A stretch of 64,000 nt of DNA from Micromonospora echinaurantiaca. GTDB taxonomy: Bacteria > Actinomycetota > Actinomycetes > Mycobacteriales > Micromonosporaceae. Positions 47,764 to 64,000 of this stretch are shown here, in pieces. Under the pieces are notes generated by a model that made no database searches, was not told where the DNA came from, and saw only the letters and a program-made list of their open reading frames with translations. Both the position numbers and the translations under genes were made by a program. The DNA is taken from assembly GCF_900090235.1 (NCBI RefSeq), contig NZ_LT607750.1, forward strand, positions 5,943,001-6,007,000, written 5' to 3'. Within the stretch, counting starts at the first letter, position 1. Every line of letters starts with the position of its first letter.

Positions 47764-47843
47764 GCCGGCACTCCGCTTCGCTGCGTGCCGCCATCAGGCA
47801 CCACCGCGCCGAGCTGATGATTCACTCGCTGGCGCTCGCTCAT
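47760..47843 (-). CDS. Mini-ORF linking folK to the DUF3180 gene (relay repeat, copy 1)
   Basis: A 27-codon frame (starts M-S-E-R-Q-R-V-N-H-Q, ends G-G-T-Q-R-S-G-V-P-A). Its ATG overlaps the folK stop as ATGA and its own stop overlaps the DUF3180 start as ATGA. The DNA contains GAATCATCAG and GCGGAGTGCCG, shared with the mini-ORF at 56425-56481. I consider it a translated coupling segment rather than a functional peptide, but this is inference. Confidence 0.5.
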   Translation of the reverse strand: MSERQRVNHQLGAVVPDGGTQRSGVPA

Positions 47844-48367: not shown

Positions 48368-48729
48368 CGGGCACGCGTCCGGGTCATGGTGACGGCCACG
48401 TCGCTGAAGGCGTGCGGCACCGGCGCCTCGGGCTTGTGCACGGTGACCGTCGCGGTGACCACCCGGGAATCGGCCAGGCAGACCGCCAGCAGCCGATCGG
48501 CGAGCGTCTCGATCAGGTTGACCGGCTCCCCGGTCACCACCGCGACCAGCCGCTCGGCCAGCTCGCCGTAGTGGACGGTGTCGGTCACCTCGTCGGAGCG
48601 GGCGGCGGGCGCCAGGTCCAACTCCAGGACCGCGTCGACGACGAAGTCCTGGCCCTGCTCGCGCTCGAAGTCGTACACCCCGTGCCGACCGTGCGCCCGC
48701 AGGCCGGTCAGCTCGATCCGGTCGGTCAC
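48364..48729 (-). CDS. folB: Dihydroneopterin aldolase
   Basis: A 121-residue aldolase making 6-hydroxymethyl-dihydropterin. It begins T-D-R-I-E-L-T-G-L-R-A-H-G-R-H-G-V-Y-D-F-E-R, with the usual G-V-x-x-x-E-R glutamate and Q-D-F-V-V-D-A-V-L-E-L-D-L, then T-V-H-Y-G-E-L-A and T-V-H-K-P-E-A-P-V. GTG start overlaps the folP stop (GTGA). Same order as in mycobacteria. Confidence 0.97.
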   Translation of the reverse strand: MTDRIELTGLRAHGRHGVYDFEREQGQDFVVDAVLELDLAPAARSDEVTDTVHYGELAERLVAVVTGEPVNLIETLADRLLAVCLADSRVVTATVTVHKPEAPVPHAFSDVAVTMTRTRAR

Positions 48730-49673
48730 CGGTCCCCTCCTCCGCTCGGCACCGGCCCGGTGGCGACGAGCCGGGGCCGGCCGGTGGCCTGCCAGACCGC
48801 CAGCGCGTCCACGGTGCCCCGCACGTCGTGCACCCGGACCCCCCAGGCGCCGGACGCCACCGCGAGCACGCTGGTGGCGATGGTGGCCGCCTCCCGGCCG
48901 TCGGTCGGCCGGGGGGTGCCGTCCGGACCGGCTAGCAGCCGGCCGAGGTACGACTTGCGGCTCGACCCGAACAGCAGCGGGAAGCCGAGTTCGAGCAGCT
49001 CGGTCAGGCGGGCGCTGAGTTCCCAGTTGTGGGTGGCGGTCTTGGCGAAGCCGAGCCCGGGGTCGATCACGATCCGGTCGGCGGCGACGCCGGCCCGCAT
49101 CGCCTCGTCGACCCGCTGGCCCAGCTCGGCGCGGACGTCGGCGACCACGTCGGTGTAGCTGGCCAGCTCCCGCATCCCCCGGGAGTGGCCGCGCCAGTGC
49201 ATCAGCACCCAGGGACAGCCGGCCTCCCGGACCACCCGGGCCATGTCCGGGTCGGCGAGACCGCCGGAGACGTCGTTGACCACCGCCGCGCCGGCCGCGA
49301 GCGCTGCCTCGGCCACCCGGGCCCGGCTGGTGTCGATGCTGGTCGGCACGCCCGCCGCGGCCAGTTCCCGGATCACCGGGAGGACCCGGGCCGCCTCGGT
49401 CTCCGCGTCCACCCGGTCGGCGCCGGGCCGGGTCGACTCGCCGCCGACGTCCACCAGGTGGGCGCCGTCGGCGCGCAGCCGCACGCCGTGTCCGACGGCG
49501 GCATCCAGGTCGGCGTACCGTCCGCCGTCGGAGAAGGAATCGGGCGTGACGTTGAGGACGCCCATCACCACCGGGGCCGGGCCCCGTACCAGATCGGTCA
49601 CGGCTTGACGGTACCGGTCCACAAGATGGCCCGGGCAGGCCTGGGTCGGCCGTCCGTACGACACCCCTGACAT
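48726..49673 (-). CDS. folP: Dihydropteroate synthase
   Basis: A TIM-barrel enzyme joining pterin pyrophosphate to p-aminobenzoate, the sulfonamide target. Motifs are M-G-V-L-N-V-T-P-D-S-F-S-D-G-G, D-V-G-G-E-S-T-R-P-G-A, I-D-T-S-R, V-N-D-V-S-G-G, D-P-G-L-G-F-A-K-T and G-S-S-R-K-S-Y-L-G. As drawn it has 315 residues; the first 24 are not family-like, and the GTG at 49601 (V-T-D-L-V-R-G-P-A-P) is an equally good start. folE, its usual upstream neighbour, is 12.8 kb away here. The gene diverges from the secretion-like block. Confidence 0.95.
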   Translation of the reverse strand: MSGVSYGRPTQACPGHLVDRYRQAVTDLVRGPAPVVMGVLNVTPDSFSDGGRYADLDAAVGHGVRLRADGAHLVDVGGESTRPGADRVDAETEAARVLPVIRELAAAGVPTSIDTSRARVAEAALAAGAAVVNDVSGGLADPDMARVVREAGCPWVLMHWRGHSRGMRELASYTDVVADVRAELGQRVDEAMRAGVAADRIVIDPGLGFAKTATHNWELSARLTELLELGFPLLFGSSRKSYLGRLLAGPDGTPRPTDGREAATIATSVLAVASGAWGVRVHDVRGTVDALAVWQATGRPRLVATGPVPSGGGDR

Positions 49674-49733
49674 GGGCATTGGAACAGGTGTACGATCGGT
49701 CGTCCGGGTCGGATCGGGCAGCCTCTTCGCGGC

Positions 49734-49762
49734 TTGTCGCAAAGGGGGGCGGCCCGTACGCT
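49734..49762 (+). promoter_or_regulatory. Candidate promoter of the secretion-like block
   Basis: TTGTCG (-35), 17-bp spacer, TACGCT (-10), about 197 bp before the first gene. The 285-bp gap 49674-49958 also holds the folP promoter region and otherwise shows no gene; a GGAGGGAGG stretch lies at about 49797-49805. Confidence 0.4.
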
Positions 49763-49958
49763 TTGGAATTGCCCAGCATCGAGATGGCGAAGCCTGGAGG
49801 GAGGGCCGAAGCGGGAAATATCCGGCCAAAGCTGACCACTCTCCGTGGTGAGCAACGAACGCAGGGTTCCGCACGCTGCGCACAGTGAGCACCGTTCCCG
49901 CCCAGGCACGTCTACTGCACCGCCGCGGCGCCGCCGGCCGCGACATGGGGAGGTACCA

Positions 49959-50273
49959 GTGATCGCCATCGAGCTGATGGAGACGGCGTCCTCGACCGCC
50001 GCCCACCTGCTCTCCACCCTGGCGTCGACTCCACTCGCCGAGCCGGCGCCGAAGGGCATCGACACCGAGGGTGTCGTCACCTTCTTCGCCAGCAAGATCG
50101 CGCCGATCCTGCTCGCCGTCCTGGGCGTCATCTTCATCGGCCGGGCCAGCCGCGGCGAGATCTCCAAGGTGCTGACCAGTTCCGCGATCGCCATCGTCGG
50201 TCTGGCGTTCATCGCCGGGGCGGCCACGCTGTTCTTCATCGGCGACTACCTGATCGACCTGATCTTCGAATAG
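49959..50273 (+). CDS. Two-TM pilin-like protein (VirB2/TrbC-like)
   Basis: A 104-residue protein with a 35-residue N-terminal segment and two membrane helices (I-A-P-I-L-L-A-V-L-G-V-I-F-I-G and S-A-I-A-I-V-G-L-A-F-I-A-G-A-A-T-L-F-F) joined by a short basic loop G-R-A-S-R-G-E-I-S-K. This hairpin shape fits VirB2/TrbC pilins and the small membrane proteins that open Gram-positive T4SS operons. GTG start with GGGGAGG upstream. First gene of the block; the name is inferred from shape and position, not from motif identity. Confidence 0.65.
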   Translation: MIAIELMETASSTAAHLLSTLASTPLAEPAPKGIDTEGVVTFFASKIAPILLAVLGVIFIGRASRGEISKVLTSSAIAIVGLAFIAGAATLFFIGDYLIDLIFE

Positions 50274-50286
50274 GCGCGGGCTCGAC

Positions 50287-50649
50287 ATGCGGCTGCGCAC
50301 CGACGACGACATCTACCGGGCTCGCCTGGTCTACCTCGGGCCGCCCGGCTACACCCTTCCGGTCCACCTCCCGTACGCCCAGTACGGGCTGTTCATGCTG
50401 CTCGTCCCCCTCTACATGTTCATCCACTGGTTGTTCACGCTGAAGGTGGAGCTCTTCCCGGCCTGGGAGATCGCGCTCGCCATCGTGACCACCTCGTTCG
50501 TCTTCCGGTACGTCGACCCGGACCGGCCGGCGCGGATGGTGATCCGCACCGCGCTGACCGACTGGCGGCGCACCCGGGAGCCGGCCACCGAGCAGCGCGA
50601 TCCCCGCCTGGTCGGCAGCCGGATCAGGATCCGGGAGGAACTGGCATGA
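50287..50649 (+). CDS. PrgI/TcpE/VirB3-like small membrane protein
   Basis: A 120-residue protein with two close helices (Y-G-L-F-M-L-L-V-P-L-Y-M-F-I-H-W and I-A-L-A-I-V-T-T-S-F-V-F) and a C-terminal basic cytoplasmic tail with F-R-Y-V-D-P-D-R-P-A-R-M-V-I-R-T. The arrangement and place directly before a VirB4-like ATPase match PrgI/TcpE/VirB3 proteins. It lies 13 bp after the pilin-like gene. Its stop overlaps the start of a 13-codon mini-ORF. Confidence 0.65.
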   Translation: MRLRTDDDIYRARLVYLGPPGYTLPVHLPYAQYGLFMLLVPLYMFIHWLFTLKVELFPAWEIALAIVTTSFVFRYVDPDRPARMVIRTALTDWRRTREPATEQRDPRLVGSRIRIREELA

Positions 50650-50687
50650 CCGGGCAGTCGTACGACGCGGGTGAGGCGATCGCATGA
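50646..50687 (+). CDS. 13-codon mini-ORF linking the PrgI-like and VirB4-like genes
   Basis: The frame encodes M-T-G-Q-S-Y-D-A-G-E-A-I-A. Its ATG overlaps the upstream stop as ATGA and its TGA overlaps the downstream ATG as ATGA. GGGTGAGGCG inside it could be the ribosome site of the VirB4-like gene. It shows no sequence similarity to the other three linkers but has the same layout. Confidence 0.4.
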   Translation: MTGQSYDAGEAIA

Positions 50688-53600
50688 GCCGCTCTTCCAC
50701 GCCGGGTTCCCCGGCCGGGCGTCCGGCCGCTCCGCCCGGTAACCGTGCGCGATCGTTCGACTACACGGATGCCCCGGAGCCGGACGAGGCCGCCCTCGAC
50801 CCGGCGCTGGTGCCCGCCCCGGGTCACGGCGGGGTGGGCGTCTTCCAGGCGCCCCGCCCGGTGCAGCGCCGGGCCGCCACCGAACCCGCCCCCGCACCGT
50901 CCACCAGCGACAGCGCCGACATCGACTCGCCCTTTTTGGACCTGTTCGGCGGCGCCCACCCGGGAGCGGCCCGCCCGGCCCCGCCACGCCGCGGCCCCGA
51001 GCGGGAACAGCCGACGATCCCGCAGCAGCCGGCCACCGCGCCGCTGCCCGCCCCACCCGAGGTCGCCCCACCCGCGCCCGTCGCGGAGCCCCCGGCGACG
51101 TACCAGCCGCCGACCCGGCCGGCCCGTCCCCGGGTGCCGCAGCAGCCCGGCGACCGGCTGCCCGTGGTACGCCCGCCCGCCCAGCCGGTGCCGGCCGACC
51201 CGGGTGGCGCTCGGGCCGCCGATGAGCTCGACCCGCCCGAGCCGCCCGACCGCCCGGCCCGCCGGGCGCCGAAGCAACTGCCGGAACGGCCCGCCGGCCG
51301 GGAGATTGCCCCGCCCCGACAGCGCTCCCCCGAACGGCGCAAGCAGCCGGCCAAGCCGGTCCGGGTCAAGCCGCCGAAAATCACGTTCGGCGACCGGGAT
51401 CCGGCCGTGGAACTGGCCATCACCGAGATCGCCGGGCACCTCACCTTCACCCCGAACACCGTCACCGCCTGGTACTGGCTGCCCGAGGTGCGCTGGGCGT
51501 TCCGGCCGGACGCCGAGCGGGAGGCGCTGCTCTCGGCGATCTCCGAGCAGTACGCCGGCCTCGCCGGCTTCCGGCTGCACCTACGCCGCACCACCCGCCC
51601 CTTCCCGGCCGACGAGTGGGCCCGCACCATCGACGCGAACACCCCGGCGCCGCTGCCCGACGTACCGGGCACGCCGGGTTGGGGCGACCACCTGGTGGCC
51701 GCGCAGCGGCACCTGCTCTCGGTCAACCACGCCGAGGGCCAGACCTATCTCGGGGTCACCTTCGCCCGGCGGTCGCTCGGCGACTCGCTCACCGAGCGGC
51801 TGCTGCGCACCTTCGGCCGGGGGGTCGCCGAGGGCGAACGCCGCCGGCTGGGCCGGACCGTCGAGCAGTTCGACGAGGTGCTCGGCGCGTTCGGCATGCG
51901 CGGGCGGCGGGTCACCCCGCAGGAGCTGGAGTGGCTGCTGTACCGCTCGGTGGCGCTCTGCATGGCGCCCCCCGGCGCGCTCTCCCCGGTCACCGACGGC
52001 CGGTGGGAACGCGGCGACCTGCTGGCCCTGACCGAGCAGGTGGAGCGCTACCGCACGCCGTACGGCTCGACGGTCAAGCTGGTCAACCGGGTCACCGGCG
52101 AGGAACGGCACGTCGCGGTGCTGGCGGTGGGCCGGATGGAACCGCTGGAGATCCCGGAGCGGCACGAGCCCTGGCTGCACTTCCACGAGCGGCTGCCCTG
52201 GCCGATGGAGTTGTCCACCCGGGTCGACATCCTCGGTCCCGGCGACTCCTTCCGCAACCTCGAACACCGGCTGCGGATGATCCGCTCGCAGCAGCTCGAC
52301 TACGCCGAGCACGGCATCGACGCCCCGCCCGAGCTGGAGCGGTTGGCCAAGCGGGCGCTGGTGATCGGCGACGAGATGACCACCGGGCTGCCGGTCGACT
52401 CGGCCCGCGCGCACGGCTGGCACCGCATCGCGGTCGGTGGCCGTACCCGGGAGGAGTGCCTGGAGCGGGCCCGGCGGCTGGTCCAGCTCTACTCCCGCGA
52501 GCTGCGCATCTCGCTCCAGCACCCGAAGAACCAGGACTGGCTGGCCCGCGAGTTCATCCCCGGCGAGCCGATCGCCAACACCGGCTACGTCCGGCGGATG
52601 CCGGTCAACCTGCTCGCCGCCGCGCTGCCCCAGGCCGCGTCGACCGTCGGCGACCGGCGCGGCGACCTGATCGGCCGGACAGCCGGCACCTGCCGCCGCC
52701 CGGTCTTCCTCGACCTGCACTACCCGATGGAGGTCCGCGAGCGCTCCGGGCTCGCCGTCTTCGTGGCCGAACCGGGCGGCGGCAAGTCCACCCTGCTCGG
52801 CGCGCTCGGCTACCTGGCCGCCCGGCGCGGCGTGCAGGTGACCCTGCTCGACCCGTCCGGCCCGCTGGCCCGGCTCTGCGCGATGCCGGAGCTGCGCCCG
52901 TACTCGCGGGTGCTCAACCTGACCGGCTCGGAGCACGGCACCCTGGCGCCGTACTCGCTCATCCCCACCCCGCTGCGCAGCGAGTTCGGCGCCGGCGCGG
53001 CCGGTGACCGGGAGTTCGAGATCGCCGTCTCCAACGCCCGCGCCGAGCGACGGATGCTGGTGCAGGACATCTGCATGATGCTGGTGCCGCCGCAGGTGGC
53101 CCGCGAGGCGTCGACCGCCACCCTGTTCCGGCACGCCGTACGCCAGGTGCCGGCGGAGGAGACCTCCACCCTGGACGACGTGGTCACCACGCTCAGCCAG
53201 CTGGACGACGACGCCGGCAAGGAACTGGCCAACCTGCTGCTCGACACCGCCGAGATGCCGCTGGCCATGCTCTTCTTCGGTAAGCCACCGGAAGGGCTGC
53301 TCGGCGCAGACGCGGCGCTCACCGTGATCACCATGGCCGGCCTCCGGCTGCCCGACCTCAAGATCGAGCGGGAGTACTGGTCGGCCGAGGAGGCGCTCGC
53401 CCTGCCGATGCTGCACACCGCGCACCGGCTGGCCGTCCGTCGCTGCTACGGCGGGTCGATGTCGTCGCGCAAGCTGGTCGGCCTCGACGAGGCGCACTTC
53501 ATGGAGGGCTGGCGCTCCGGGCGCTCGTTCCTGGTCCGGCTCGCCCGGGACTCCCGCAAGTGGAACCTCGCCGCCCTGGTGGCCTCGCAGAACCCGCGCG

Positions 53601-53938
53601 ACATCCTCGGCCTCGACGTGCAGAACCTCGTCTCCACCGTGTTCGTCGGCCGAATCGCCGAGGACACCGAGATCGCCTCCGAGGCGCTGCGCCTGCTCCG
53701 GGTGCCGGTCAACGACGGCTACGAGGCCACCCTCGCCTCGCTTTCCACGGCGGACGCCACCTCGGCCAGCCGGCTCGGCTTCCGGGAGTTCGTGATGCGC
53801 GACGTCGACGGGCGGGTGCAGAAGGTCCGGGTCGACGTCTCGTACGTCCAGGGCCTGCTGGACCACCTCGACACCACACCCGCGGCGATCGCCGCCGCGA
53901 CCGGCGTACTGCCGACCGTGCCCGATCTGGAGGCGTGA
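50684..53938 (+). CDS. VirB4/TraC/TcpF-like secretion ATPase
   Basis: A 1084-residue protein. Residues 1-230 are disordered and Pro-rich; 235-680 form the VirB4 N-terminal domain; 685-1075 the motor. Walker A is A-E-P-G-G-G-K-S-T (695-703) and Walker B L-V-G-L-D-E-A-H-F (931-939), followed by R-D-S-R-K-W-N-L-A-A-L-V-A-S-Q-N-P-R-D. The D-E-A-H and S-Q-N motifs are typical of VirB4 and HerA-type ATPases. It should power assembly of, or substrate movement through, a membrane channel. The next gene starts two bases after its stop. Confidence 0.85.
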   Translation: MSRSSTPGSPAGRPAAPPGNRARSFDYTDAPEPDEAALDPALVPAPGHGGVGVFQAPRPVQRRAATEPAPAPSTSDSADIDSPFLDLFGGAHPGAARPAPPRRGPEREQPTIPQQPATAPLPAPPEVAPPAPVAEPPATYQPPTRPARPRVPQQPGDRLPVVRPPAQPVPADPGGARAADELDPPEPPDRPARRAPKQLPERPAGREIAPPRQRSPERRKQPAKPVRVKPPKITFGDRDPAVELAITEIAGHLTFTPNTVTAWYWLPEVRWAFRPDAEREALLSAISEQYAGLAGFRLHLRRTTRPFPADEWARTIDANTPAPLPDVPGTPGWGDHLVAAQRHLLSVNHAEGQTYLGVTFARRSLGDSLTERLLRTFGRGVAEGERRRLGRTVEQFDEVLGAFGMRGRRVTPQELEWLLYRSVALCMAPPGALSPVTDGRWERGDLLALTEQVERYRTPYGSTVKLVNRVTGEERHVAVLAVGRMEPLEIPERHEPWLHFHERLPWPMELSTRVDILGPGDSFRNLEHRLRMIRSQQLDYAEHGIDAPPELERLAKRALVIGDEMTTGLPVDSARAHGWHRIAVGGRTREECLERARRLVQLYSRELRISLQHPKNQDWLAREFIPGEPIANTGYVRRMPVNLLAAALPQAASTVGDRRGDLIGRTAGTCRRPVFLDLHYPMEVRERSGLAVFVAEPGGGKSTLLGALGYLAARRGVQVTLLDPSGPLARLCAMPELRPYSRVLNLTGSEHGTLAPYSLIPTPLRSEFGAGAAGDREFEIAVSNARAERRMLVQDICMMLVPPQVAREASTATLFRHAVRQVPAEETSTLDDVVTTLSQLDDDAGKELANLLLDTAEMPLAMLFFGKPPEGLLGADAALTVITMAGLRLPDLKIEREYWSAEEALALPMLHTAHRLAVRRCYGGSMSSRKLVGLDEAHFMEGWRSGRSFLVRLARDSRKWNLAALVASQNPRDILGLDVQNLVSTVFVGRIAEDTEIASEALRLLRVPVNDGYEATLASLSTADATSASRLGFREFVMRDVDGRVQKVRVDVSYVQGLLDHLDTTPAAIAAATGVLPTVPDLEA

Positions 53939-53939
53939 C

Positions 53940-55877
53940 ATGGCGAGGGCCCGGGCGCTTCTCCTCGCACTCGGCATCCTCGCCGGGGCCACCATCGGCT
54001 GGCCGGCGGTCGGGGCGACACCGGCGGCGGCGGCCCCGGCCGTCACCGCCCAAGCCGCGGCTGACCTGTGCACCACACCGGAGTGGCAGGCCGACTTCCG
54101 CGCCTGCGTCGCCAAGCTGAAGGATGTTTCCGCAGCGCGGGCCGACTGCCTCGAGGCTCCGACGCCGGGCACTCCTGACGCAGGGCTCGCCGGCTGGTTC
54201 GCCAGCGCACCTCCAGAGAAGACAGCTGGGGGGGTGACCGGCCGATACAGCCTGTATGGATACGCCGGCTACAGCTACACCACATACGACGTCGGATGTG
54301 CCGCGCCAGTCCTGCATCCCGACTACAAGTTCACCACGACCATCGCGAACGGCGAATTCATGATCGCCACAGCCGTGATCGGTGCTTCCAACGCCCTCCG
54401 GGAACGGGCGTGGGATCCGCGGTCGATGTGGGGCTGGGCCGACCCGCTGGTGGAGAAGGCCACGAAGGCCGTCTACCAGAAGGTGTTCAGCGTCTTCGGC
54501 ATCGTCACCCTGTGTGTGGTCGGGCTCTACCTGCTCTGGCGCTCTCGCCAGTCGGACATGAGCAACGCGATGACCACGGCCGGCTGGGCGCTGCTGGTGA
54601 TGGTGGCGGTCACCGCCCTGGCCGCCTGGCCGGTCAAGTCGGCGAATGTCGCCGACGGCACCCTGATCACGACCCTCGGCGTGGTTCACGACGCGGTGGG
54701 TCCGCAGGCCAGGGATGTGGCACCGGGCCGGTGCATAGATCCGAATCCAGATCGGTGTAAGGACCATCGCCCGCCCGCCGTCCGGGCCAGCGACACTGCC
54801 ACCGAATCCATGCTTTATCGGAACTGGCTGCGCGGGGTGTTGGGTTCCGCCGACAGCGAGACCGCCAAGAAGTACGGCCCGGCGCTGTATGACGCCCGGT
54901 CATTGACCTGGGGCGAGGCGCAGTCCATTCGGGCCAATCCAGCGACTCGTCAGGCAACCATCGCCGCAAAACAGCAGCAATGGATGAAGGTGGCTGAGCA
55001 GATCCGGGAGGAGGACCCGGAGGCGTACGAGTACCTCCAGGGTGTGCGGGACATGGACCGGGTCGGCGCCGGCTTCATCGCCGTCCTCGCCTCGCTGCTG
55101 TTCGCGATGTTCGACCTGACCGCGTCGGTGCTGGTCCTGCTCGGCTTCCTGATCTTCCGGTGGGCGGTGATCGCGGCACCGATCCTGGGCACGGTCGGCC
55201 TGTTGAGGCCGGCCAGCGCGGGGCTGCGCCGGCTGGCGAACGCGGTGGTCGCCGCGGTCTTCAACATCGCCATCTTCGGCACCGGGGCGGCCATCTACCT
55301 CTTCGCGGTCGACCTGATCATGAGCACCACCACCCTGCCCGGTTGGCTCCAGGTGGTGCTGGTCTGGCTCTGCGGTGTGGTCGGCTGGCTGCTGCTCCGC
55401 CCGTACCGGCGGATCACCCAGCTCGGCGGCAAGGACAGCAGCGAGGCGGTCAGCTCGGCCGGCTCCTGGCACCGGCGCTTCTTCCGGGACATGCGGACCG
55501 CCGCCCGACTGGACGTGTCGGAGCCCGGTGGCACCGCCGAGCCGACGATGAGCCGACGCCGTCCCGTCGTCGCCGAACAGACCCGCCTGCGGCCCGAGGC
55601 ACGGCACGAGGATCCGGCGCACGCGGCCGGCGGTGGTGGCAGCGGTGGCGGTGCCGGTGGTGACCGGCAACGTCCGGACGGCCGGGACCCGGCGGGCGGG
55701 GCGACCGCCCCGGAGGAGCGGGGCAGCGGCCGGCCCGCGCCCCGACCCCGCCGGGCGGCGACCTGGACCGAGCCGGACGTGCCGGAGGAGAGCCCGTCCT
55801 ACGTCATCTACCGTCCGGGGACGACCGACCGCACGCCCGATCGACCCGCGCCGCGGATCCGCTCTGAGGCCCGGTGA
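53940..55877 (+). CDS. VirB6/TrbL-like polytopic membrane protein
   Basis: A 645-residue protein: signal peptide (residues 1-33, cleaved after A-A-A-A-P), a cysteine-bearing extracytoplasmic domain, about seven helices (136-152, 184-200, 213-231, 377-396, 398-420, 432-460, 468-487), and a disordered Gly/Arg-rich tail. Large polytopic proteins of this kind form the channel of T4SS (VirB6, TrbL). The soluble loops (bases about 54100-54450 and 54700-54990) use A- and T-ending codons more than the flanks, so they may evolve differently. Overlaps the next gene by GTGA. Confidence 0.75.
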   Translation: MARARALLLALGILAGATIGWPAVGATPAAAAPAVTAQAAADLCTTPEWQADFRACVAKLKDVSAARADCLEAPTPGTPDAGLAGWFASAPPEKTAGGVTGRYSLYGYAGYSYTTYDVGCAAPVLHPDYKFTTTIANGEFMIATAVIGASNALRERAWDPRSMWGWADPLVEKATKAVYQKVFSVFGIVTLCVVGLYLLWRSRQSDMSNAMTTAGWALLVMVAVTALAAWPVKSANVADGTLITTLGVVHDAVGPQARDVAPGRCIDPNPDRCKDHRPPAVRASDTATESMLYRNWLRGVLGSADSETAKKYGPALYDARSLTWGEAQSIRANPATRQATIAAKQQQWMKVAEQIREEDPEAYEYLQGVRDMDRVGAGFIAVLASLLFAMFDLTASVLVLLGFLIFRWAVIAAPILGTVGLLRPASAGLRRLANAVVAAVFNIAIFGTGAAIYLFAVDLIMSTTTLPGWLQVVLVWLCGVVGWLLLRPYRRITQLGGKDSSEAVSSAGSWHRRFFRDMRTAARLDVSEPGGTAEPTMSRRRPVVAEQTRLRPEARHEDPAHAAGGGGSGGGAGGDRQRPDGRDPAGGATAPEERGSGRPAPRPRRAATWTEPDVPEESPSYVIYRPGTTDRTPDRPAPRIRSEAR

Positions 55878-56428
55878 GTGCGGTGCGGCGGGCGCTGGAG
55901 TTCCTGGTCACCCGGGCACTGCGGTCCCGGCTGGGGATCGCGCTCGTGATCGCGGTGGTGGTGTTCGGCATCATCGGCGCCGCCCGGTTGGTCGCCGGCC
56001 CCGGCGATGCGACGACCCTGAGCAACCGGCCGAGCCAGCCGATCACGACCGTCGAGCCGGACGAGGGCGACGACGGAGCGATCGCCACCGGTCCACCGGC
56101 CTCCCCGGTGACCCGTCCTGGGGCCCGCACGCCGGAGCAGACGGCCGACCGGTTCGTCACCGCCTGGCTGGGCAGGCCGGGTCTGACCACCGACCAGTGG
56201 CACCAGGGTCTGCGACCACTCTCCACCCCGGCGCTGACCGAGAAGCTCGCCGGTGCCGAGCCGGCGGGTGTGCCGGCCGAGCAGGTGACCGGTGCGGTCA
56301 GCCTCCGGCCGCGCACCGCGACCTTCGTCGAGGCCCTGGTGCCGATGGACACCGGACAGCTCCGGCTGGAACTGGTGGCCCCGGACGGGGAGTGGCTGGT
56401 CGACGCGGTGGACTGGGAGCAGGCATGA
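55874..56428 (+). CDS. VirB8/TcpC-like single-TM protein
   Basis: A 184-residue protein with one helix (G-I-A-L-V-I-A-V-V-V-F-G-I-I-G-A-A) near residue 25, a Pro/Thr-rich linker and an extracytoplasmic domain with R-T-P-E-Q-T-A-D-R-F-V-T-A-W-L-G at its start and a closing L-R-L-E-L-V-A-P-D-G-E-W-L-V-D-A-V-D-W. This is the layout of the NTF2-like VirB8/TcpC domain, scaffold of T4SS. GTG start overlaps the upstream stop; its own stop overlaps a mini-ORF start. Confidence 0.65.
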   Translation: MSAVRRALEFLVTRALRSRLGIALVIAVVVFGIIGAARLVAGPGDATTLSNRPSQPITTVEPDEGDDGAIATGPPASPVTRPGARTPEQTADRFVTAWLGRPGLTTDQWHQGLRPLSTPALTEKLAGAEPAGVPAEQVTGAVSLRPRTATFVEALVPMDTGQLRLELVAPDGEWLVDAVDWEQA

Positions 56429-56481
56429 GCGAGCGAATCATCAGGCTTGGCGGCACGGAGCGCAGCGGAGTGCCGACATGA
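56425..56481 (+). CDS. 18-codon mini-ORF linker (relay repeat, copy 2)
   Basis: Starts M-S-E-R-I-I-R-L-G-G and ends S-G-V-P-T. Both ends are ATGA overlaps, with the VirB8-like stop before and the hydrolase start after. It shares GAATCATCAG and GCGGAGTGCCG with the copy between folK and DUF3180, although the two copies sit in unrelated operons on opposite strands. Confidence 0.5.
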   Translation: MSERIIRLGGTERSGVPT

Positions 56482-57647
56482 GCGACGAGACCCGACCGCC
56501 CCGGCGACGGCTCCGGATCGGCACCCTGGCCGCCTTCCTCACCGGCGTCCTGGCGCTGCTCTGCTGCACCGGCGGATCCGCCGCCTTCTTCCTCACCGAA
56601 CTCGGCGGTGACGCCGGCGAACGGCTGACCCTCGCCGGCCAGGAGTGCACGGGCGACTTCCCGGTCAACGCGACCGGCAAGATGCCTCGCATGTCCGAGT
56701 ACGGCGAGAGCCAGCTCCGCAACGCCGCGCGGATCGTCAAGGTCGGGCAGGAGATGAAGGTGCCGCCGCGGGGCTGGGTGATCGCGGTGGCGACCGCGAT
56801 GCAGGAGTCCGGCCTGCGGAACCTGGCCAACCGGACGGTCGCCCAGTCGCGCGACCTGCCGAACGAGGGGGTCGGCGCCGACCACGACTCGGTCGGCCTG
56901 TTCCAGCAGCGGGCCAACTGGGGCAGCGTCGCGCAGCGGATGACCCCCGAGTACGCCGCCCGCAAGTTCTACGAGAAGCTGCTGAAGGTGCCCGGCTGGC
57001 AGCGGATGCCGCTGACCACGGCGGCGCAGAAGGTGCAGATCAGCGCGTTTCCGGACGCGTACGCCAAGCACGAGGCGCTGGCCGCCCGGATCGTGGACGC
57101 GCTGGCCGGCGGCGCGGCCCGGACGGCGGAGATCGGCGGCCAGCAGGTTTGCGACGCCGCCTCCGGCGCGGAGATTGCCGCCTCCGGATGGACGGCCCCG
57201 ATCCCGGGTGGGGTCGGCTCCGGCTTCCGCACGGCGAGCCGGCCTGGCCACAACGGGGTCGACATCGCCGCCCGCAAGGGGACGCCGATCCACGTCGCGG
57301 CCAGTGGCCGGGTGCTGGTGTCGCGCTGCGACCCGGACAACGGCGGCCGGCTCAGCTGCGACGTGGACGGCTGGCCGGGCAAGGGCGGCTGCGGTTGGTT
57401 CGTCGACGTCCTGCACGCCGGGGGCCTGGTCACCCGGTACTGCCACATGGTCTCCAAGCCTCGGGTGCGGGTCGGCCAGACGGTGCAGGCCGGTGAGGTG
57501 ATCGGGGAGGTGGGCAGCAGCGGCAACTCCTCCGGACCGCACCTGCACTTCGAGGTGCACACCGACGGCGACCGGAGCAGCCGGAGCGCGATCGACCCGG
57601 TGCCGTTCATGCGCTCCCGGGGCGCACCCCTCAAGCACCAGGGATGA
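56478..57647 (+). CDS. Bifunctional cell-wall hydrolase: transglycosylase-like + M23 endopeptidase
   Basis: A 389-residue membrane-anchored protein. One helix (T-L-A-A-F-L-T-G-V-L-A-L-L-C-C) near residue 20; a lysozyme/SLT-like domain (residues about 75-210) with Glu110 in T-A-M-Q-E-S-G-L and D-S-V-G-L-F-Q-Q-R; and an M23/LytM domain (240-380) with zinc ligands H258 and D262 (G-H-N-G-V-D-I) and H-L-H-F-E-V (355-360). Such fusions (VirB1-like, TcpG-like) open the peptidoglycan for a T4SS in Gram-positives. ATG overlaps the mini-ORF stop. Confidence 0.85.
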   Translation: MSDETRPPRRRLRIGTLAAFLTGVLALLCCTGGSAAFFLTELGGDAGERLTLAGQECTGDFPVNATGKMPRMSEYGESQLRNAARIVKVGQEMKVPPRGWVIAVATAMQESGLRNLANRTVAQSRDLPNEGVGADHDSVGLFQQRANWGSVAQRMTPEYAARKFYEKLLKVPGWQRMPLTTAAQKVQISAFPDAYAKHEALAARIVDALAGGAARTAEIGGQQVCDAASGAEIAASGWTAPIPGGVGSGFRTASRPGHNGVDIAARKGTPIHVAASGRVLVSRCDPDNGGRLSCDVDGWPGKGGCGWFVDVLHAGGLVTRYCHMVSKPRVRVGQTVQAGEVIGEVGSSGNSSGPHLHFEVHTDGDRSSRSAIDPVPFMRSRGAPLKHQG

Positions 57648-57660
57648 GACGCTCGGTGTC

Positions 57661-58257
57661 ATGAAGGACCCACTGCCCGACCCGTTCGCGGACCAGCCGG
57701 ACTGGGCGCCGGCACCGCCGCGTCCGGTCGAGATGGTGCCGGCCACCAGCCGGGTCGAGCTCCGTGGCCGGCGCGTGCTGGTCGGCCTGCCCGGGCTGGG
57801 CTGGCGTGCCGACCTGCGCGCCGACGAACGCGTGGTGCAGGGCAGCCGGACGTACGTCCCGGTCATCCCCGAGCACGAGTGGTACCGCGCGGAGGCCGAC
57901 CAGGTGGAGGTCTTCGCCCCACTGATGCCGGTGGAGCGGGTCTGGGTGGAGACCGTGGGCACCCGGCCGGCGGCCGGGCTGCACGAGGGCGGGATCCGGC
58001 TCGTCTCCCTGGACGCCCCGACGCACCGCCCGCCGACCCCGGTCGTCGAGGCGGACTCGGTCACCGGCCGCCGGGTTGTGCACGTGGTCGGCGGCGTGGA
58101 GCACCGCGACCTGCGGGCGGTCACCGAAACCTACTCCGGTGCCGACGGCGACATCTGCGTCCGGGTGACCTCGGAGGTGGAGTGGTACCGCTGGGCCTGG
58201 CGCGGCCAGTCACCGACCACCTTGGAGGTCCCGGTCCACCTGCTCTGGATCGAGTGA
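57661..58257 (+). CDS. Uncharacterised soluble protein of the secretion-like block
   Basis: A 198-residue protein without signal peptide or membrane helix, beta-rich, with V-E-L-R-G-R-R-V-L-V-G-L-P-G-L-G-W-R-A-D, E-H-E-W-Y-R-A-E and a final W-Y-R-W-A-W-R-G. I do not recognise a family. It lies 13 bp after the hydrolase gene and its stop is two bases from the convergent gene. Its position suggests a cytoplasmic accessory of the system. Confidence 0.65.
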   Translation: MKDPLPDPFADQPDWAPAPPRPVEMVPATSRVELRGRRVLVGLPGLGWRADLRADERVVQGSRTYVPVIPEHEWYRAEADQVEVFAPLMPVERVWVETVGTRPAAGLHEGGIRLVSLDAPTHRPPTPVVEADSVTGRRVVHVVGGVEHRDLRAVTETYSGADGDICVRVTSEVEWYRWAWRGQSPTTLEVPVHLLWIE

Positions 58258-58259
58258 CG

Positions 58260-58814
58260 TCAGCTGACCGGCGCGCCGGCGCAAACCCGCCAGCCGTTCC
58301 GATCCTCCACCTCAAACTGCCATGCGTCGGTCAAGCTCTGCTGCACGCCGTCTACTGTGGCGCTGCGACGGATCGTCGCCGTGACACGCGCATGTGTTGG
58401 GCCGCTCGTTGAAACCACGACGTTCTCGATGTTGACCGACAAGCCGACGTCCAGCTCCTGTTCACGCCGCTCCATCTCGGCCCGGAAACCATCGACCGAG
58501 GGTAGCGATCCGTCGCAGGTAAAAAGCGCGGCCCGGCTCTGGTCACGCGATACCAGCGTGGCCTGCAAGTAGCTCACCACCGCCACGTCCGGTGCGCTCC
58601 GGTCGGGGGTTGCCGCCCGGTTGTACAGCACGATCCCCGCCACCACCGCAGCGACGCAGAGCACCGCGAGCACCCCCGCGACCACGATGAGCACCGTGCG
58701 CAGCCGCCGCCGCGGACGCTCCGGCGCCGGGGTGGCCGGGGGCGGCGTCAGCTGGTCGGGGGGCGTCCGCTGCGCCGGTACGCGGGAGACCTGGGAACCG
58801 GCGGGGGGCTGCAC
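58260..58814 (-). CDS. Single-TM protein with NTF2/Rv0361-like extracytoplasmic domain
   Basis: A 184-residue protein, the only minus-strand gene within the block. A Pro-rich cytoplasmic N terminus leads to one helix (T-V-L-I-V-V-A-G-V-L-A-V-L-C-V-A-A-V-V-A) and a domain with D-V-A-V-V-S-Y-L-Q-A-T-L and a closing W-Q-F-E-V-E-D-R-N-G-W-R-V-C. The pattern fits small NTF2-like secreted domains common in Micromonosporaceae. GTG 58814 has GGGAG eight bases upstream; a GTG three codons earlier is possible. Convergent with the preceding gene and divergent from the next. Confidence 0.7.
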   Translation of the reverse strand: MQPPAGSQVSRVPAQRTPPDQLTPPPATPAPERPRRRLRTVLIVVAGVLAVLCVAAVVAGIVLYNRAATPDRSAPDVAVVSYLQATLVSRDQSRAALFTCDGSLPSVDGFRAEMERREQELDVGLSVNIENVVVSTSGPTHARVTATIRRSATVDGVQQSLTDAWQFEVEDRNGWRVCAGAPVS

Positions 58815-59011
58815 TGATTCCACTCCCTGAGGCTAGCCGCTGGGCGCTGCGGACCCAATGCCCCAGATCCAGCGGATCGTGACGGACCCCTCCCCACCGG
58901 TGAGATCCACGACAACACCGGCGCAGCGCCGCCGCGCATCCGCAAGGAGCGGCTCCACCTGGGATACCGTCACTGGCGGGGTTGCCAACCTCGGGCAGAG
59001 GGGGTGGACGG

Positions 59012-61546
59012 GTGGCCGGTCCGAAGGCACGCACCAACCGCGCCGCCGCCCTGCACCGGCGGGCCGCCGCCACCGCGACCGCTGCCGCCGTCGTCCTCGA
59101 CGAGACCCGGCCGGCTCCCGCCGACCAGCGCCGCCAGTACGAGCTGGCCGAGCGGCTGCGGGCGGCGGCGGCGGTGCTGGCTCCCGGTTGGGCCGGCGCT
59201 CCACTGGAGACGCTCACGCCGACCGCGCCGGCCGGCGAGGGCCCGCCGCCGTTCGTCCGGGTCGGCACCGCGGCGCCCCTGGACGACGCCCGCTTCCCCG
59301 CGCTGGTGCCGCTGCTCGGCACCGGTCATCTCACGGTGGACGCCGACGCGTACGAGCCCCGGGTGGCCGGGCTGCTCCGGGCCGTACTGCTGCGGCTGCT
59401 GGCGGCGACCCCGGCCGGTGCGCTGCTGGTCCGCGTGGTGGACGCGGCGGGTGGCACGCTGACGCCCTTCGCGGCGCTCGCCGACGCCGGCCTGCTGCCG
59501 CCGCCGGTGGCGGACGTGGCCGGGCTGCGTGCGGTGCTGAACGAGGCCGAGCAGTGGGTGGCACCGGGCGCGAGCGGTCGCCGCCGGCACGACCGGACGC
59601 TGCTGCTGGTGATCGCCGCGCTGCCCGAGTCGACCGGTCCGACCGACCTGGGCCGGATCGCGGCGCTGGCCGAGCAGGGCCCGTCGGCCGGGCTGCACCT
59701 GCTGGTCGCCGGTTGGCCCCGGCTCGGCCGCGATCCCCTGCCGCTGGCCACCCCGCTGGCGATGCGTACCGCGTACGCGCTGCTCGGTGACCCGCCGGGG
59801 ACCTCGTTCGCCGGTCCCGGGGCGGAGCCGCCGGGCGGGTTGAACTCGCCGGTCTTCGTCGAGGCGGACCCGCCCGCCGACCTGGTCGACGCGGTCTGTC
59901 GGCGGCTCGCCGAGCAGGTGGAGGCGGGCTCCCGGCTGGCCCTGGGCGACCTGCTGCCCGACGTGGACGCCGAGGTGTGGACGGCCGGTTCGGCCGACGG
60001 GCTCAGCACCACCGTGGGCGACGCGGGTGGCCGGCCGGTCTCCCTCGGCTTCACCGAGCTGACTCCGCACTGGCTGGTCAGCGGCCGGTCCGGGACGGGC
60101 CGCTCCACCTTCCTCACCACCGCGCTGCTCGGCCTGACCGCCCGGTACGGCCCGGACGAGCTGGTGCTGCACCTGGTGGACCTCGGCGACGGCGAGTCCT
60201 TCGTGGAGTTCCTGCAGACCGAGCGGGACCGGTCCTGGATCCCACAGGTCCGTACCGCCGCGCTGGCCGCCGACCGGGAGTACGTGCTGGACCTGCTCGA
60301 CCAGTTGACCGCGGAGCTGCACCGCCGCGAGGAGGCCGGGCACCGGGCGGGCGGCCAGCGCTACGCCGAGCTGCGGCAGCACCAACCGCTGCCCAGGATC
60401 GTCTGCGTGCTGGATAATCTCCCGCTGCTCTTCGCCGAGCGGGACCGCTTGACGGCAGACGCCGCCGCCCGGCTGGAGACGCTGGCCCGGGGCGGCCGGT
60501 CGTACGGCATCCACCTGGTCCTCGCCGGCGAGGGCGACCTCGGGCTGGGCTCCCGCGCCGACGGCGGGCACCGCGACTCGATGCTCGGTCAGTTCCCGGT
60601 GCGGGTGGCACTGCCCGGCGGTGGCGCCGTGCTGGAACCGACCAACGACTCGGCGGCAGGGCTGCCGGCGGGCAGTGCGGTGGTGAACACCGCCGGTGGG
60701 CTGGGCGGCCCGCGGGGCGCGATCCGGGGGCACGAGCGCATGGTCCGCTTCCCCGATCCGCAGGACGACCCGGAGACGGTGGAGCAGCTGCGCCACCGGC
60801 TCTGGTCGGCCCGGCCCGAGGGGTCGGGGCCGCCGGTGGTCTTCGCCGGCTACGCCCGCCCCCGGCTGCGTAACGATCCCCGGCACCGCGCGGCGCTGGC
60901 CGGGCGGGCGCACGGCCCCGCAGCCCTGCTCGGCCGGGCGGTGGCCGTCGCCCGTACCACGGTGGCTGTGCCGCTCGGGCCGGCGGCGGGCCGCAACCTG
61001 GCAGTTCTCGGGCCGGGGCCGGAGGCGGCCGCGCTGCTGGCCACCGCGGCCCGCAGCACCGCCGCGCACCATCCGCCGGGTGCCGCGCGGTTCGTGCTGG
61101 CGACTGACGACCGGACCCCCGCCATCGACGCGCTCGCCGCCGAGCTGGCCGCCCGGCATCCGGTCGAGCGGGTCGACCTGCCCGGCCTGCTCGCCGTCGC
61201 GGACGCCGGTGAGCCGGCCTACCTGGTGGTCTTCGGGGTGGACGCCGGGTCGCGACTGCCCGCTGCCCGGCTCCGGACCCTGCTGCGGGAGGGCCCGCCG
61301 GCGGGCCTGCACGTGCTCGGCTGGTGGCGCACCGTGCCACCGTTCGCGGCCCTGCTGGAGCCGGCGGACGGCGAGGTGGACAAGCTCGCCGCGGTCGCCG
61401 CGGTGGACGTGCCCGGTGCTCAACTGGCGGCGGTCTTCGGTCGCCCGGTCGACTGGCGGCCCCGGCCGGGTCGGGCGGTGCTCTGGGACGGGCCGGGTGA
61501 GCGGGGCACCGTGCTGGTCCCGTTCGCCCCGGAGGGAGTGGCATGA
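59012..61546 (+). CDS. FtsK/EccC-like protein with substituted P-loop
   Basis: An 844-residue protein with no membrane helix. Residues 340-560 form an FtsK/SpoIIIE-type domain: S-G-R-S-G-T-G-R-S-T at 357-366 aligns with Walker A but has Arg364 in place of the catalytic Lys, and I-V-C-V-L-D-N-L-P-L-L-F at 463-474 has D-N where D-E is usual. A second ATPase-like domain (about 635-830) lacks a P-loop (L-G-P-G-P-E-A). This resembles the degenerate domains of EccC or T4SS coupling proteins. It may bind substrates without hydrolysing ATP. GTG 59012 was chosen over TTG 58982. Ends in an ATGA mini-ORF overlap. Confidence 0.7.
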   Translation: MAGPKARTNRAAALHRRAAATATAAAVVLDETRPAPADQRRQYELAERLRAAAAVLAPGWAGAPLETLTPTAPAGEGPPPFVRVGTAAPLDDARFPALVPLLGTGHLTVDADAYEPRVAGLLRAVLLRLLAATPAGALLVRVVDAAGGTLTPFAALADAGLLPPPVADVAGLRAVLNEAEQWVAPGASGRRRHDRTLLLVIAALPESTGPTDLGRIAALAEQGPSAGLHLLVAGWPRLGRDPLPLATPLAMRTAYALLGDPPGTSFAGPGAEPPGGLNSPVFVEADPPADLVDAVCRRLAEQVEAGSRLALGDLLPDVDAEVWTAGSADGLSTTVGDAGGRPVSLGFTELTPHWLVSGRSGTGRSTFLTTALLGLTARYGPDELVLHLVDLGDGESFVEFLQTERDRSWIPQVRTAALAADREYVLDLLDQLTAELHRREEAGHRAGGQRYAELRQHQPLPRIVCVLDNLPLLFAERDRLTADAAARLETLARGGRSYGIHLVLAGEGDLGLGSRADGGHRDSMLGQFPVRVALPGGGAVLEPTNDSAAGLPAGSAVVNTAGGLGGPRGAIRGHERMVRFPDPQDDPETVEQLRHRLWSARPEGSGPPVVFAGYARPRLRNDPRHRAALAGRAHGPAALLGRAVAVARTTVAVPLGPAAGRNLAVLGPGPEAAALLATAARSTAAHHPPGAARFVLATDDRTPAIDALAAELAARHPVERVDLPGLLAVADAGEPAYLVVFGVDAGSRLPAARLRTLLREGPPAGLHVLGWWRTVPPFAALLEPADGEVDKLAAVAAVDVPGAQLAAVFGRPVDWRPRPGRAVLWDGPGERGTVLVPFAPEGVA

Positions 61547-61590
61547 GCGAGCGATTCACGGGGCGCGGCCGTCTGGGGCCTCGACCATGA
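61543..61590 (+). CDS. 15-codon mini-ORF linker (relay repeat, copy 3)
   Basis: Starts M-S-E-R-F-T-G-R-G-R and ends G-P-R-P. ATGA overlaps the FtsK-like stop at one end and the next gene's start at the other. It shares only the first 12 bases (ATGAGCGAGCGA) with copy 2; the rest differs. Confidence 0.4.
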   Translation: MSERFTGRGRLGPRP

Positions 61591-62324
61591 GCGACGGCGA
61601 GGTGGGTGGCCGGGCGGTGACCACCGCCGTGCCCGGGCGGCAGCGCGACGGCACCCGGGTGCCGGCGCAGCCGGCCGGCGGCGATCCGGTCTCCGCCGCC
61701 TGGACCGACTACCTGGCCGCGGCCCGGCAACTGGACGGGGTACGGCGGGACGCGGTCACCGCCGCCGGTGAGCAGGCCCGGTCGGTGCAGGCCGCGCGCG
61801 AGGAGCTGACCGCCGTACGCACCCGGCTGGCGCCGCAGGAGGCGCGGCTGCGCGAGCTGGGCGTACCACCGATCTCGCTGGTGCCCACGCCGCCGGAGCT
61901 GACCGAGGCGGCCCGGTCGATGGTGGGTGGTCCGGCGGCGGTGCTGGCCGGGCTGCGCGCTGCGCACGACCGGGCGGAGGCCGCGGACGCGGCGCTGGCC
62001 GCGCGTGGCCGGGTCAACCCGGCCGGCTGGCCGGCCCCGCTGCGCAACCTGCTGGTGTACGCGCCGCTGGCGCTGCTGGTGCCGGTGATCCAGGTGGTGG
62101 TCTACCTGGCGACCGGGCCCGGGGCGGCGAGCGTCGCGGCACTGATCTGCGGGCTGCCGATGCCGGCGGTGGCGTTCGCGGCCGGGTGGATCGGCACCGG
62201 ACGGCTCTTCCCGGCCCGGCCGGGCCGGCGGGCGGACCGGACGACGCGGCTCGGCGCGCTGGTCTGCCTGGTCCCGGCGGTGCTGGTCACCGCCGGGCTG
62301 CTGCTCGCGCTCCTCGCCGGCTGA
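61587..62324 (+). CDS. Coiled-coil membrane protein ending the secretion-like block
   Basis: A 245-residue protein. Residues about 35-150 are helical and probably coiled coil ([20 protein letters not shown]), followed by three helices ([34 protein letters not shown], and [15 protein letters not shown]). No family recognised. Coupled to the FtsK-like gene through a mini-ORF, so the two products probably act together. Confidence 0.65.
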
Positions 62325-62332
62325 ACCGGCCC

Positions 62333-62378
62333 GGGCCGCCGAGCCGGCTGAACCGCGGCCGGGCCGCCGAGCCGGCTG
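62333..62378. repeat. Direct repeat after the secretion-like block
   Basis: GGGCCGCCGAGCCGGCTG occurs at 62333 and 62361, and its GCCGGCTGAACCG part also overlaps the end of the preceding gene. It lies in the 149-bp gap between convergent genes. Confidence 0.6.
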
Positions 62379-62473
62379 GCGGCCCGATCGTCGACCGGCG
62401 GCCACGACGTCACCGGAGAGCACTCGGCCGGCCGCCCGCGGGACGCTGGGTCGGCCGGCCGGGTCGGCTCGGG

Positions 62474-63037
62474 TCAGCGGGGGATGATCAGGGCCATCGC
62501 CTCGGCGCGGGACTTCGCGTCGTTCTGCAGGGTGCCGCGCACCGCCGAGGTGATGGTCTGAGCGCCGGACTTCTGGATTCCGCGCATCGCCATGCACATG
62601 TGCTCGCACTCGAGCACCACCACCACGCCGCGCGGCTCCAGCTTGCTCATCAGCAGGTCGGCGATCTGCGAGGTGAGGCGCTCCTGCACCTGGGGCCGGC
62701 GGGCGAAGACCTCGACCAGCCGGGCCAGCTTGGACAGGCCGGTGATCCGGCCGTCCGGCCCGGGGATGTAGCCGATGTGTGCGCTGCCCCGGAACGGCAG
62801 CAGGTGGTGCTCGCAGAGGCTCATCACGTCGATGTCCCGGACCAGCACCAGCTCCTCGTGGTTGGCCTCGAAGGTGGTGCTGAGCACCTGGGCCGGGTCG
62901 ACCCGGAGGCCGGCGAAGAGTTCCGCGTACGCGCGGGCGACCCGGGACGGGGTCTGCTGGAGGCCGTCCCGGTCCGGGTCCTCCCCGACCGCGATCAGGA
63001 TTTCCCGGACGGCCTTCTCGATCCGGCCGAGGTCCAT
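62474..63037 (-). CDS. folE: GTP cyclohydrolase I
   Basis: A 187-residue enzyme (from ATG 63037) converting GTP to dihydroneopterin triphosphate, first step of folate synthesis. It has [12 protein letters not shown], zinc site [28 protein letters not shown] and [11 protein letters not shown]. The 47 codons before this ATG are also open and protein-like ([14 protein letters not shown]), reaching a CTG at 63178 that overlaps the ftsH stop; the true start could be there. The usual next gene, folP, is separated by the secretion-like block. Confidence 0.95.
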
Positions 63038-63174
63038 GGTGTCCTCGACCGGCCGGCCGGTGAGCTTGCCGCTGATCAGCCGGGCGGCGACGTAGTCGAG
63101 GGCGTCGTCGCCGTCGGGCTCGGTCGCGGACGCGGCCAGCCCCCGGTCGTGGGGGCTGGCCGCCGGGTCGGTGC

Positions 63175-64000
63175 TCAGTGCGTACCGTCCGAGTTGTTCG
63201 AGGTGCCGCCGACCGTCGCCTCGGCACCGTCGGCCTGGGCCTGCACCTTGAGCGCCTCCTTCTCCGCCGGGGTGAGCACCGGCGGCTCGGTGGAGGGCTG
63301 GCGCTTGCCGAAGCCGTTGTACGGCGCCATCGGCGGCCGCTTGGCCACCCGCGCGCAGATCCGGGCCATGTCGGCGGTGGAGAGGGTCTCCTTCTCCATC
63401 AGCTCCAGGACGATGTTGTCCAGCACGTCCCGGTACTCGACCAGGATCTCCCAGGCCTCGTCGTGGGCCAGTTCGATCAGCGCCCGCATCTCGGCGTCGA
63501 TCTCGGCGGCGACGGCGTCGGAGTAGTCCCGCTCGTGGCCCATGTTGCGGCCGAGGAACGGCTCGTCGCCGCTGGTGCCGTACTTGATCGCACCGAGCTT
63601 GGAGCTCATGCCGTACTGCGTGATCATCGCGCGGGCCAGCTGGGTGGCCTTCTCGATGTCGTTGCCGGCGCCGGTGGTCGGCTCGTGGAAGACCAGCTCC
63701 TCGGCGGCCCGGCCGCCGAGCGCGTAGGCCAGCGTGTCGACCATCTCCGCGCGGGTCTGGGTGTACTTGTCCTCGGTGGGCAGCACCAGGGTGTGGCCCA
63801 ACGAGCGCCCGCGGGACAGGATCGTCACCTTGTGCACCGGCGCGGCGTGCGGCAGCGCCCAGGCGACCAGCGCGTGCCCACCCTCGTGGTACGCGGTGAT
63901 CTTCTTCTCCTGGTCGCTCATCACCCGGGTCCGCCGCTGCGGACCGGCAATCACCCGGTCGATCGACTCCTCCAGGGAGTCGTTGGTGATCGCCCGCTGG
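63175..64000 (-). CDS. ftsH: ATP-dependent zinc metalloprotease FtsH, C-terminal part
   Basis: The frame is open at base 64000, giving about 275 residues of the protease half. The zinc site is [10 protein letters not shown] (H-E-x-x-H), followed by [32 protein letters not shown] with the third zinc ligand Asp, and M-S-S-K-L-G. The AAA domain lies outside the window. A hydrophilic tail of about 60 residues ends S-D-G-T-H. It degrades membrane and regulatory proteins at the inner membrane. folE follows directly. Confidence 0.96.

Follow-up and report, generated by a model that had tools for sequence, protein, structure and literature searches.

What is a set of genes resembling a type IV secretion system (T4SS) doing between the housekeeping genes folP and folE in the chromosome of Micromonospora echinaurantiaca? 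The window analysed here, a stretch of 64,000 bases (positions 5,943,001–6,007,000 of the 7,203,133-base single-contig genome), holds six consecutive plus-strand genes (49959–57647), which were read, at a probability of about 0.72, as the core of a Gram-positive (monoderm) T4SS, an ancient capture from a conjugative plasmid or an integrative and conjugative element (ICE) that has since been inherited with the chromosome. The same probability applies to the lineages in which a captured core is seen, namely Micromonosporaceae, Cryptosporangiaceae and, as a separate clade, Pseudonocardiaceae. The reading is carried by gene content, homology, the predicted fold of VirB8, conservation, selection and genomic context. 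The core genes, which follow each other almost without gaps and have one conserved promoter in common, are:

49959–50273, plus strand: VirB2-like small membrane protein, 104 aa; homologues occupy this position in plasmids and in other families
50287–50649, plus strand: VirB3/TcpE-like protein, 120 aa; plasmid homologues
50684–53938, plus strand: VirB4 ATPase, 1084 aa; AAA_10 (E 5.5e-24) and Walker motifs
53940–55877, plus strand: VirB6-like polytopic membrane protein, 645 aa; plasmid homologue at the same position
55874–56428, plus strand: VirB8-like protein with membrane anchor and NTF2 domain, 184 aa; predicted fold
56478–57647, plus strand: VirB1-like wall hydrolase (transmembrane (TM) segment, muramidase domain, M23 endopeptidase), 389 aa; Peptidase_M23 (E 3.5e-25) and N-terminal TM segment

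Of the parts that mark a monoderm T4SS core, a VirB4 with Walker motifs, a VirB8 with NTF2 domain and anchor, a VirB6/TrbL protein and a VirB1-type hydrolase were found, and for these proteins the VirB shapes given in the original prediction were confirmed. Walker A (EPGGGKS, residues 696–702) and Walker B (GLDEAH, residues 933–938) were intact in the VirB4 of the window and in all 53 rows of the VirB4 tree; the protein matched the TcpF model at 3.8e-20, with 71 bits where 1100 are needed, and a sequence search of the PDB gave no match. The NTF2 fold predicted for VirB8 had TraM of pIP501 as its best structural match and was also similar to PrgL, and the N-terminal part of the hydrolase matched the muramidase 8b2e (E 2e-24). 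The VirB6-like protein, for which no direct Pfam match was obtained, was aligned with its plasmid counterpart at 27% over 521 columns (E 1e-48) and was connected to TrbL/VirB6 by two-step homology, its profile matching Streptosporangiaceae proteins of which a relative matches TrbL/VirB6 at 2e-7. For the VirB2-like protein no Pfam or NCBIfam match was found; in its correct frame it was present in 66 of 80 Micromonosporaceae loci at 73–99% identity (all such locus counts refer to the best 80 of 258 relatives). Comparison of the VirB3-like protein with the Pfam-recognised TcpE of Streptosporangiaceae by hhalign gave a weak probability of 65.5%, and one Amycolatopsis homologue is named TcpE family in its source record.

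Relatives of VirB4 were sought by tblastn in 72,556 plasmid records and found in 284, all below 60% identity; the eight best, from Streptomyces, Nonomuraea and Pseudonocardia plasmids, covered 96–98% of the query at 34–38% identity. Plasmids of Streptomyces (NZ_CP029542, L122), Nonomuraea (NZ_CP107854, L123) and Prescottella (pVAPN1571, L124) carry six homologous genes in identical order, with VirB4 proteins 32–38% identical to that of the window and, in the Nonomuraea plasmid, a weak VirB2-like match (6e-4). With the same six genes in the same order, the chromosomal block therefore matches the transfer core of actinobacterial plasmids. These systems differ in that they lie on plasmids, where ParA and an FtsK-type protein, hydrophobic at its N-terminus as read by eye, stand nearby, pVAPN1571 being typed as MOBF, whereas the Micromonospora core is chromosomal and single copy; no relaxase was found with it, and it has no such coupling protein alongside.

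VirB4 was searched for in the whole genomes of an order sample (n = 101), of Micromonosporaceae (n = 150), of Pseudonocardiaceae (n = 100) and of a class sample (n = 197), and usually occurred in single copy. It was detected in 142 of 150 Micromonosporaceae genomes (41 of 44 genera) and in 100 of 100 Pseudonocardiaceae genomes (46 of 46 genera), where it makes up a related clade specific to that family; with a site largely fixed in Micromonosporaceae, this is not the sporadic, variable-site distribution of an ICE. Among the eight negative Micromonosporaceae, three genomes were less than 90% complete and three were the sole sampled members of genus g150. The order sample gave a match in 39 of 101 genomes, including Micromonosporaceae (f1, 12/12), family f11 (2/2), Cryptosporangiaceae (f13, 5/5) and Pseudonocardiaceae (f15, 11/11), the remaining nine being scattered and some of their matches weak. 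In the class sample 28 of 197 genomes were positive, 15 of them Streptosporangiaceae (f31) at 31–33% identity, with a VirB4 79.5–95.7% identical to that of Nonomuraea gerenzanensis. Because the neighbours at Streptosporangiaceae locus L142 match Pfam TcpE, TpcC, TrbL and NLPC_P60, the system there, a more distant one, plainly belongs to the Tcp type of T4SS. At L120, L121 and L161, in genomes of f11 and f5, a second VirB4 type was observed; it is distant, has neighbours that are TcpE-like and joins the Streptosporangiaceae clade. In four Pseudonocardiaceae genomes (G447, G455, G481, G483) the VirB4 alignment was split near query residue 457 by about 360–390 residues; the G447 protein (L198, 2249–6247) matches LAGLIDADG_3 at 5e-6, so that an intein is likely.

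At the Micromonosporaceae loci, homologues of VirB4, VirB6, VirB8 and the hydrolase were present in 80 of 80. Fourteen loci were without the VirB2-like gene, 12 of which start inside VirB4 at a contig end. At two Micromonospora loci (L042, L073) VirB4 was present and the VirB2-like gene, VirB3-like gene and folP were missing upstream though the sequence runs on, by rearrangement or assembly fault.

The core adjoins housekeeping genes, at a site that differs by family and is largely fixed within each: folP–folE in most Micromonosporaceae, and infC-rpmI-rplT-pheS-pheT in Cryptosporangiaceae (L102, L103, L104; profile-checked in L102) and in f11 (L107, L108). An RNB-domain gene lies near the core at Pseudonocardiaceae locus L116, and genes read by eye as manB, whiB and cofD lie near that of f9. 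In the VirB4 tree every family with two or more rows formed one clade; Micromonosporaceae, Cryptosporangiaceae and f11 grouped at 100, Pseudonocardiaceae were placed with plasmids and Streptosporangiaceae far off, and branches were short within families and long for plasmids. This grouping and these branch lengths were read as two or more captures from plasmids, with vertical inheritance after each. The six core genes are under purifying selection, with dN/dS values against three congeners of 0.00–0.37 (VirB2 0.00–0.23, VirB3 0.00–0.13, VirB4 0.12–0.18, VirB6 0.16–0.21, VirB8 0.21–0.30, hydrolase 0.08–0.37); the flanking genes gave 0.20–0.23 (folP) and 0.03–0.11 (folE).

No relaxase, integrase or bounding repeat had been visible in the original prediction, and this was borne out for the cassette and its flanks and, as regards TrwC, genome-wide: VirD4, relaxase and integrase families had no match among the 10 cassette proteins or 8 flanking proteins, and the block was not bounded by any direct repeat of at least 20 nt within 47000–64000. 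No TrwC (MOBF) relaxase was found in the whole 7.2-Mb genome, the E. coli control giving a signal and other MOB families not having been searched genome-wide. Beside the core no plasmid-type coupling protein was found, VirD4 models not having been searched genome-wide. The proposal made then, of a dedicated apparatus in the chromosome and not a recent ICE, is upheld by a conserved block in many genomes without a relaxase found, and the check suggested for it (conservation in many genomes, VirB4/6/8 matches, no relaxase) turned out accordingly.

The interval between folP and folE was confirmed to contain ten genes, nine on the plus strand and one on the minus strand, at the places and on the strands first described. 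Three starts were refined: the VirB2-like gene begins with GTG at 49959 and not at 49734, where the −35 box of its promoter lies; the hydrolase begins with ATG at 56478, and the start of the FtsK/EccC-like gene is probably GTG at 59012. An FtsH-type gene (Peptidase_M41) is next after folE. The flanks and the region upstream of the core are:

48726–49673, minus strand: folP (DHPS); Pterin_bind (E 6e-83)
49734–49762, plus strand: promoter; −35 TTGTCG, 17-bp spacer, −10 TACGCT, hexamers read by eye
49763–49958, plus strand: leader of about 190 nt, conserved in sequence, with inverted repeat TCACCAC...GTGGTGA (alignment of 28 loci)
62474–63037, minus strand: folE; GTP_cyclohydroI (E 2e-77)

The promoter looks like a vegetative sigma site, and 62 of the 66 loci with a VirB2-like gene have a box of the GTACGCT type upstream; L010, L030 and L060 had no match, and the match in L081 lay at the edge of the stretch and was not counted. 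Promoter and leader are kept even in distant genera. The leader matches no Rfam family, and RNAalifold covariation was weak, for which reason an RNA structure was not shown; with its inverted repeat TCACCAC/GTGGTGA, the leader could be an operator.

The remaining four genes of the interval are:

57661–58257, plus strand: soluble protein, 198 aa, tandem of two SH3/Tudor-like barrels of about 70 residues; model pLDDT 88, halves aligning at 98.9%
58260–58823, minus strand: TM protein with Rv0361-family-like C-terminal domain, 187 aa; NF051431 9.9e-9, 35.5 of the 37 bits needed
59012–61546, plus strand: FtsK/SpoIIIE, EccC-like ATPase without clear N-terminal TM segment; FtsK_SpoIIIE (E 7e-14)
61587–62324, plus strand: protein of 245 aa whose C-terminal half has three to four TM-like segments; hydropathy scan

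Homologues of 57661 and 58260 were present in all 80 Micromonosporaceae loci, of the FtsK-like gene in 77 and of 61587 in 71, with folP in 66 and folE in 64; three Asanoa loci (L070, L077, L080) had no folE within the stretch. The FtsK-like gene was not in place in L013 and L054 and was displaced in L029. The original prediction had taken all ten genes as one machine, which did not hold: the six core genes stand alone, with the last four not beside them, in the examined Cryptosporangiaceae, f11 and Pseudonocardiaceae loci and in 4 of 20 further Micromonosporaceae genomes, and the last four genes (57661–62324) are a looser addition. The FtsK/EccC-like protein is no more than a distant relative of plasmid coupling proteins, and its relatives elsewhere stand apart from the T4SS. 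The three genes proposed as new components fared unequally. The 57661 protein, which had no match to any family in profile scans, is a new protein family with independent support and some exceptions: its homologue was found in 14 of 101 order-sample genomes, every one VirB4-positive, and its dN/dS was 0.12–0.19. Against plasmids, tblastn with 57661 found nothing and a profile found a relative on the Streptomyces plasmid L122. The 58260 protein, a relative of the C-terminal domain of mycobacterial Rv0361, evolves much faster than its neighbours (dN/dS 0.40–0.73; FtsK-like 0.20–0.31, 61587 0.21–0.39). The 61587 protein, without a significant family match, is a partner of the FtsK-like gene not demonstrably tied to the T4SS, and its role as a component is unproven. 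The sequence ATGAGCGAGCG was observed four times in the window (56425, 61543, 47833, 12939) versus 0.03 expected; in two of these places it overlaps a stop codon, that of the VirB8-like gene and that of the FtsK-like gene.

From these parts we infer how the machine would be assembled, act and select a substrate. VirB3, VirB6 and the VirB4 ATPase would constitute the translocon of the inner membrane, VirB8 would form the part in the cell wall, the wall would be opened by the muramidase/M23 enzyme, and the VirB2-like protein would line or extend the channel. The accessory set would have joined the core between folP and folE in Micromonosporaceae, where the best candidate for a dedicated partner in the cytosol, or for an adaptor of the substrate, is 57661 with its tandem barrels. 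As neither a relaxase nor a plasmid-type coupling protein accompanies the core, the cargo is most likely other than a relaxase-processed plasmid. The chances that it is protein are about even; a pilin-like surface structure of its own, or chromosomal DNA moved via an unlinked or split partner, are unlikely cargoes, to an equal degree. The wider claim of a core-genome T4SS in several filamentous actinomycete families, with at least two domestications from conjugative plasmids, a dedicated substrate, coupling-protein-free or split coupling and the 57661 family as partner in Micromonosporaceae, may as readily be wrong as right.

Several observations weigh against the captured-core reading. The genome-wide relaxase search covered a single family, TrwC, and no coupling protein that would recruit a substrate is recognisable. 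VirB2 and VirB3 are identified by position, homologues and weak profiles. The VirB4 tree is a quick tree of 53 rows with long-branch warnings, and the site is not perfectly fixed, L105 having no infC beside the core. VirB4 was missing from G303, G333 and G352, all three sampled genomes of genus g150, and is therefore dispensable in that genus; this natural loss is useful for comparison. As to 57661, no homologue was found in the sampled Cryptosporangiaceae, f11 and Pseudonocardiaceae genomes, L213 retains the core without it, and in G070 (genus g3; L192, L193) its relative adjoins folE, away from the T4SS core, which is on a different contig. About 4 kb from that G070 core is a gene matching WXG100.

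A pilus or wall-spanning channel for mycelial development or sporulation, and not a translocator to other cells, would overlap with the pilin-like cargo considered above. The families named here consist of filamentous actinomycetes that mostly form spores, pilin is handled by VirB4 in other T4SSs, and the M23 domain of the hydrolase also matches SpoIIQ-type proteins; yet no developmental gene is present in the block and the promoter, as read by eye, looks vegetative, which leaves this explanation unlikely.

More doubtful is a DNA-exchange machine, in which the FtsK-like ATPase and its membrane partner would together serve the core as a split coupling protein for relaxase-free movement of chromosomal DNA between hyphae, overlapping with the DNA cargo named above. 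Streptomyces TraB and mycobacterial distributive transfer move chromosomal DNA without a relaxase, by other means. An FtsK-family ATPase and a multi-TM partner do lie within the same block, and in the 101-genome sample a long FtsK-family match (E 2e-36 or better) was found in 30 of 30 T4SS genomes of the four core families versus 2 of 71 others below 1e-20. This co-occurrence, however, tracks family lines, and nine further VirB4-positive sample genomes, f9 included, have no long FtsK-family match. In Pseudonocardiaceae, Cryptosporangiaceae and f11 the relatives of the FtsK-like gene are situated away from the T4SS, the plasmid coupling proteins are closer to other FtsK proteins of the M. echinaurantiaca genome than to the FtsK-like neighbour, and L013 and L054 keep the core with no such gene in place.

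A decayed or stalled conjugative element, i.e. an ICE remnant with genes persisting by chance, would suit a gene order equal to that of plasmid transfer regions and a relaxase not found in the TrwC search, and is hardly credible in view of the core dN/dS values, the intact ATPase motifs, the near-universal occurrence in two families and the lack of widespread internal frameshifts or stops, none having been seen in the copies examined. One TGA was listed in eight Micromonosporaceae VirB4 matches (G340, G358, G383, G391, G397, G400, G404, G407); in the one match checked, G358 (L219), the alignment had run past the end of the gene and the TGA is its normal stop codon.

Under the captured-core reading, whole families of antibiotic producers, major ones among them, probably own an unstudied secretion device, an envelope machine kept in the normal chromosome. 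Usually single copy and with no relaxase found, it offers a clean genetic system for asking which cargoes other than conjugative DNA can pass through a monoderm T4SS, and whether proteins or chromosomal DNA get delivered to neighbours.

Compared with known systems, the core has the VirB1/3/4/6/8-like set in common with MPF-FA/FATA systems (pCW3 Tcp, pIP501 Tra, pCF10 Prg, Tn916, ICESt3); unlike in these, there was no significant Pfam or NCBIfam match for VirB2, VirB3, VirB6 and VirB8 of the window, and no type IV coupling protein or relaxase was found. With type VII (ESX) secretion it is connected by the FtsK-like gene, which matches the EccC ATPase domain; the match to EccCa (4.8e-18) gave 65 bits where 509 are needed, and no EccB, EccD or EccE match was found among the neighbours of that gene. 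Chromosomal VirB4 without a relaxase is also a feature of the MOBless T4SSs, which are thought to be co-opted (Guglielmini 2011, PMC3158045), and of the mostly relaxase-free T4SSs of Patescibacteria (PMC12102498), the latter differing in that VirD4-like proteins are kept (PMC12857230). The T4SS review has a section on systems without VirD4 and presents the 89K-island system as apparently the first effector translocator of the T4SS superfamily in a Gram-positive (PMC12857230), and few T4SSs were found in actinobacteria in the survey (PMC3158045). In Micromonospora lupini Lupac 08, the VirB4 gene MiLup08_42651 was reported as a single gene with unknown genes around it (PMC4182475); this locus is L008 here, and the available text of that paper describes no machine, family-wide conservation or context. 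In the open-licence PMC literature, subscription papers being outside its scope, no description of a family-wide core-genome T4SS in actinomycetes was found. As far as these sources extend, MOBless T4SSs (PMC3158045) and a single virB4 in M. lupini (PMC4182475) are what is known, and the family-wide core-genome T4SS of actinomycetes is what is new.

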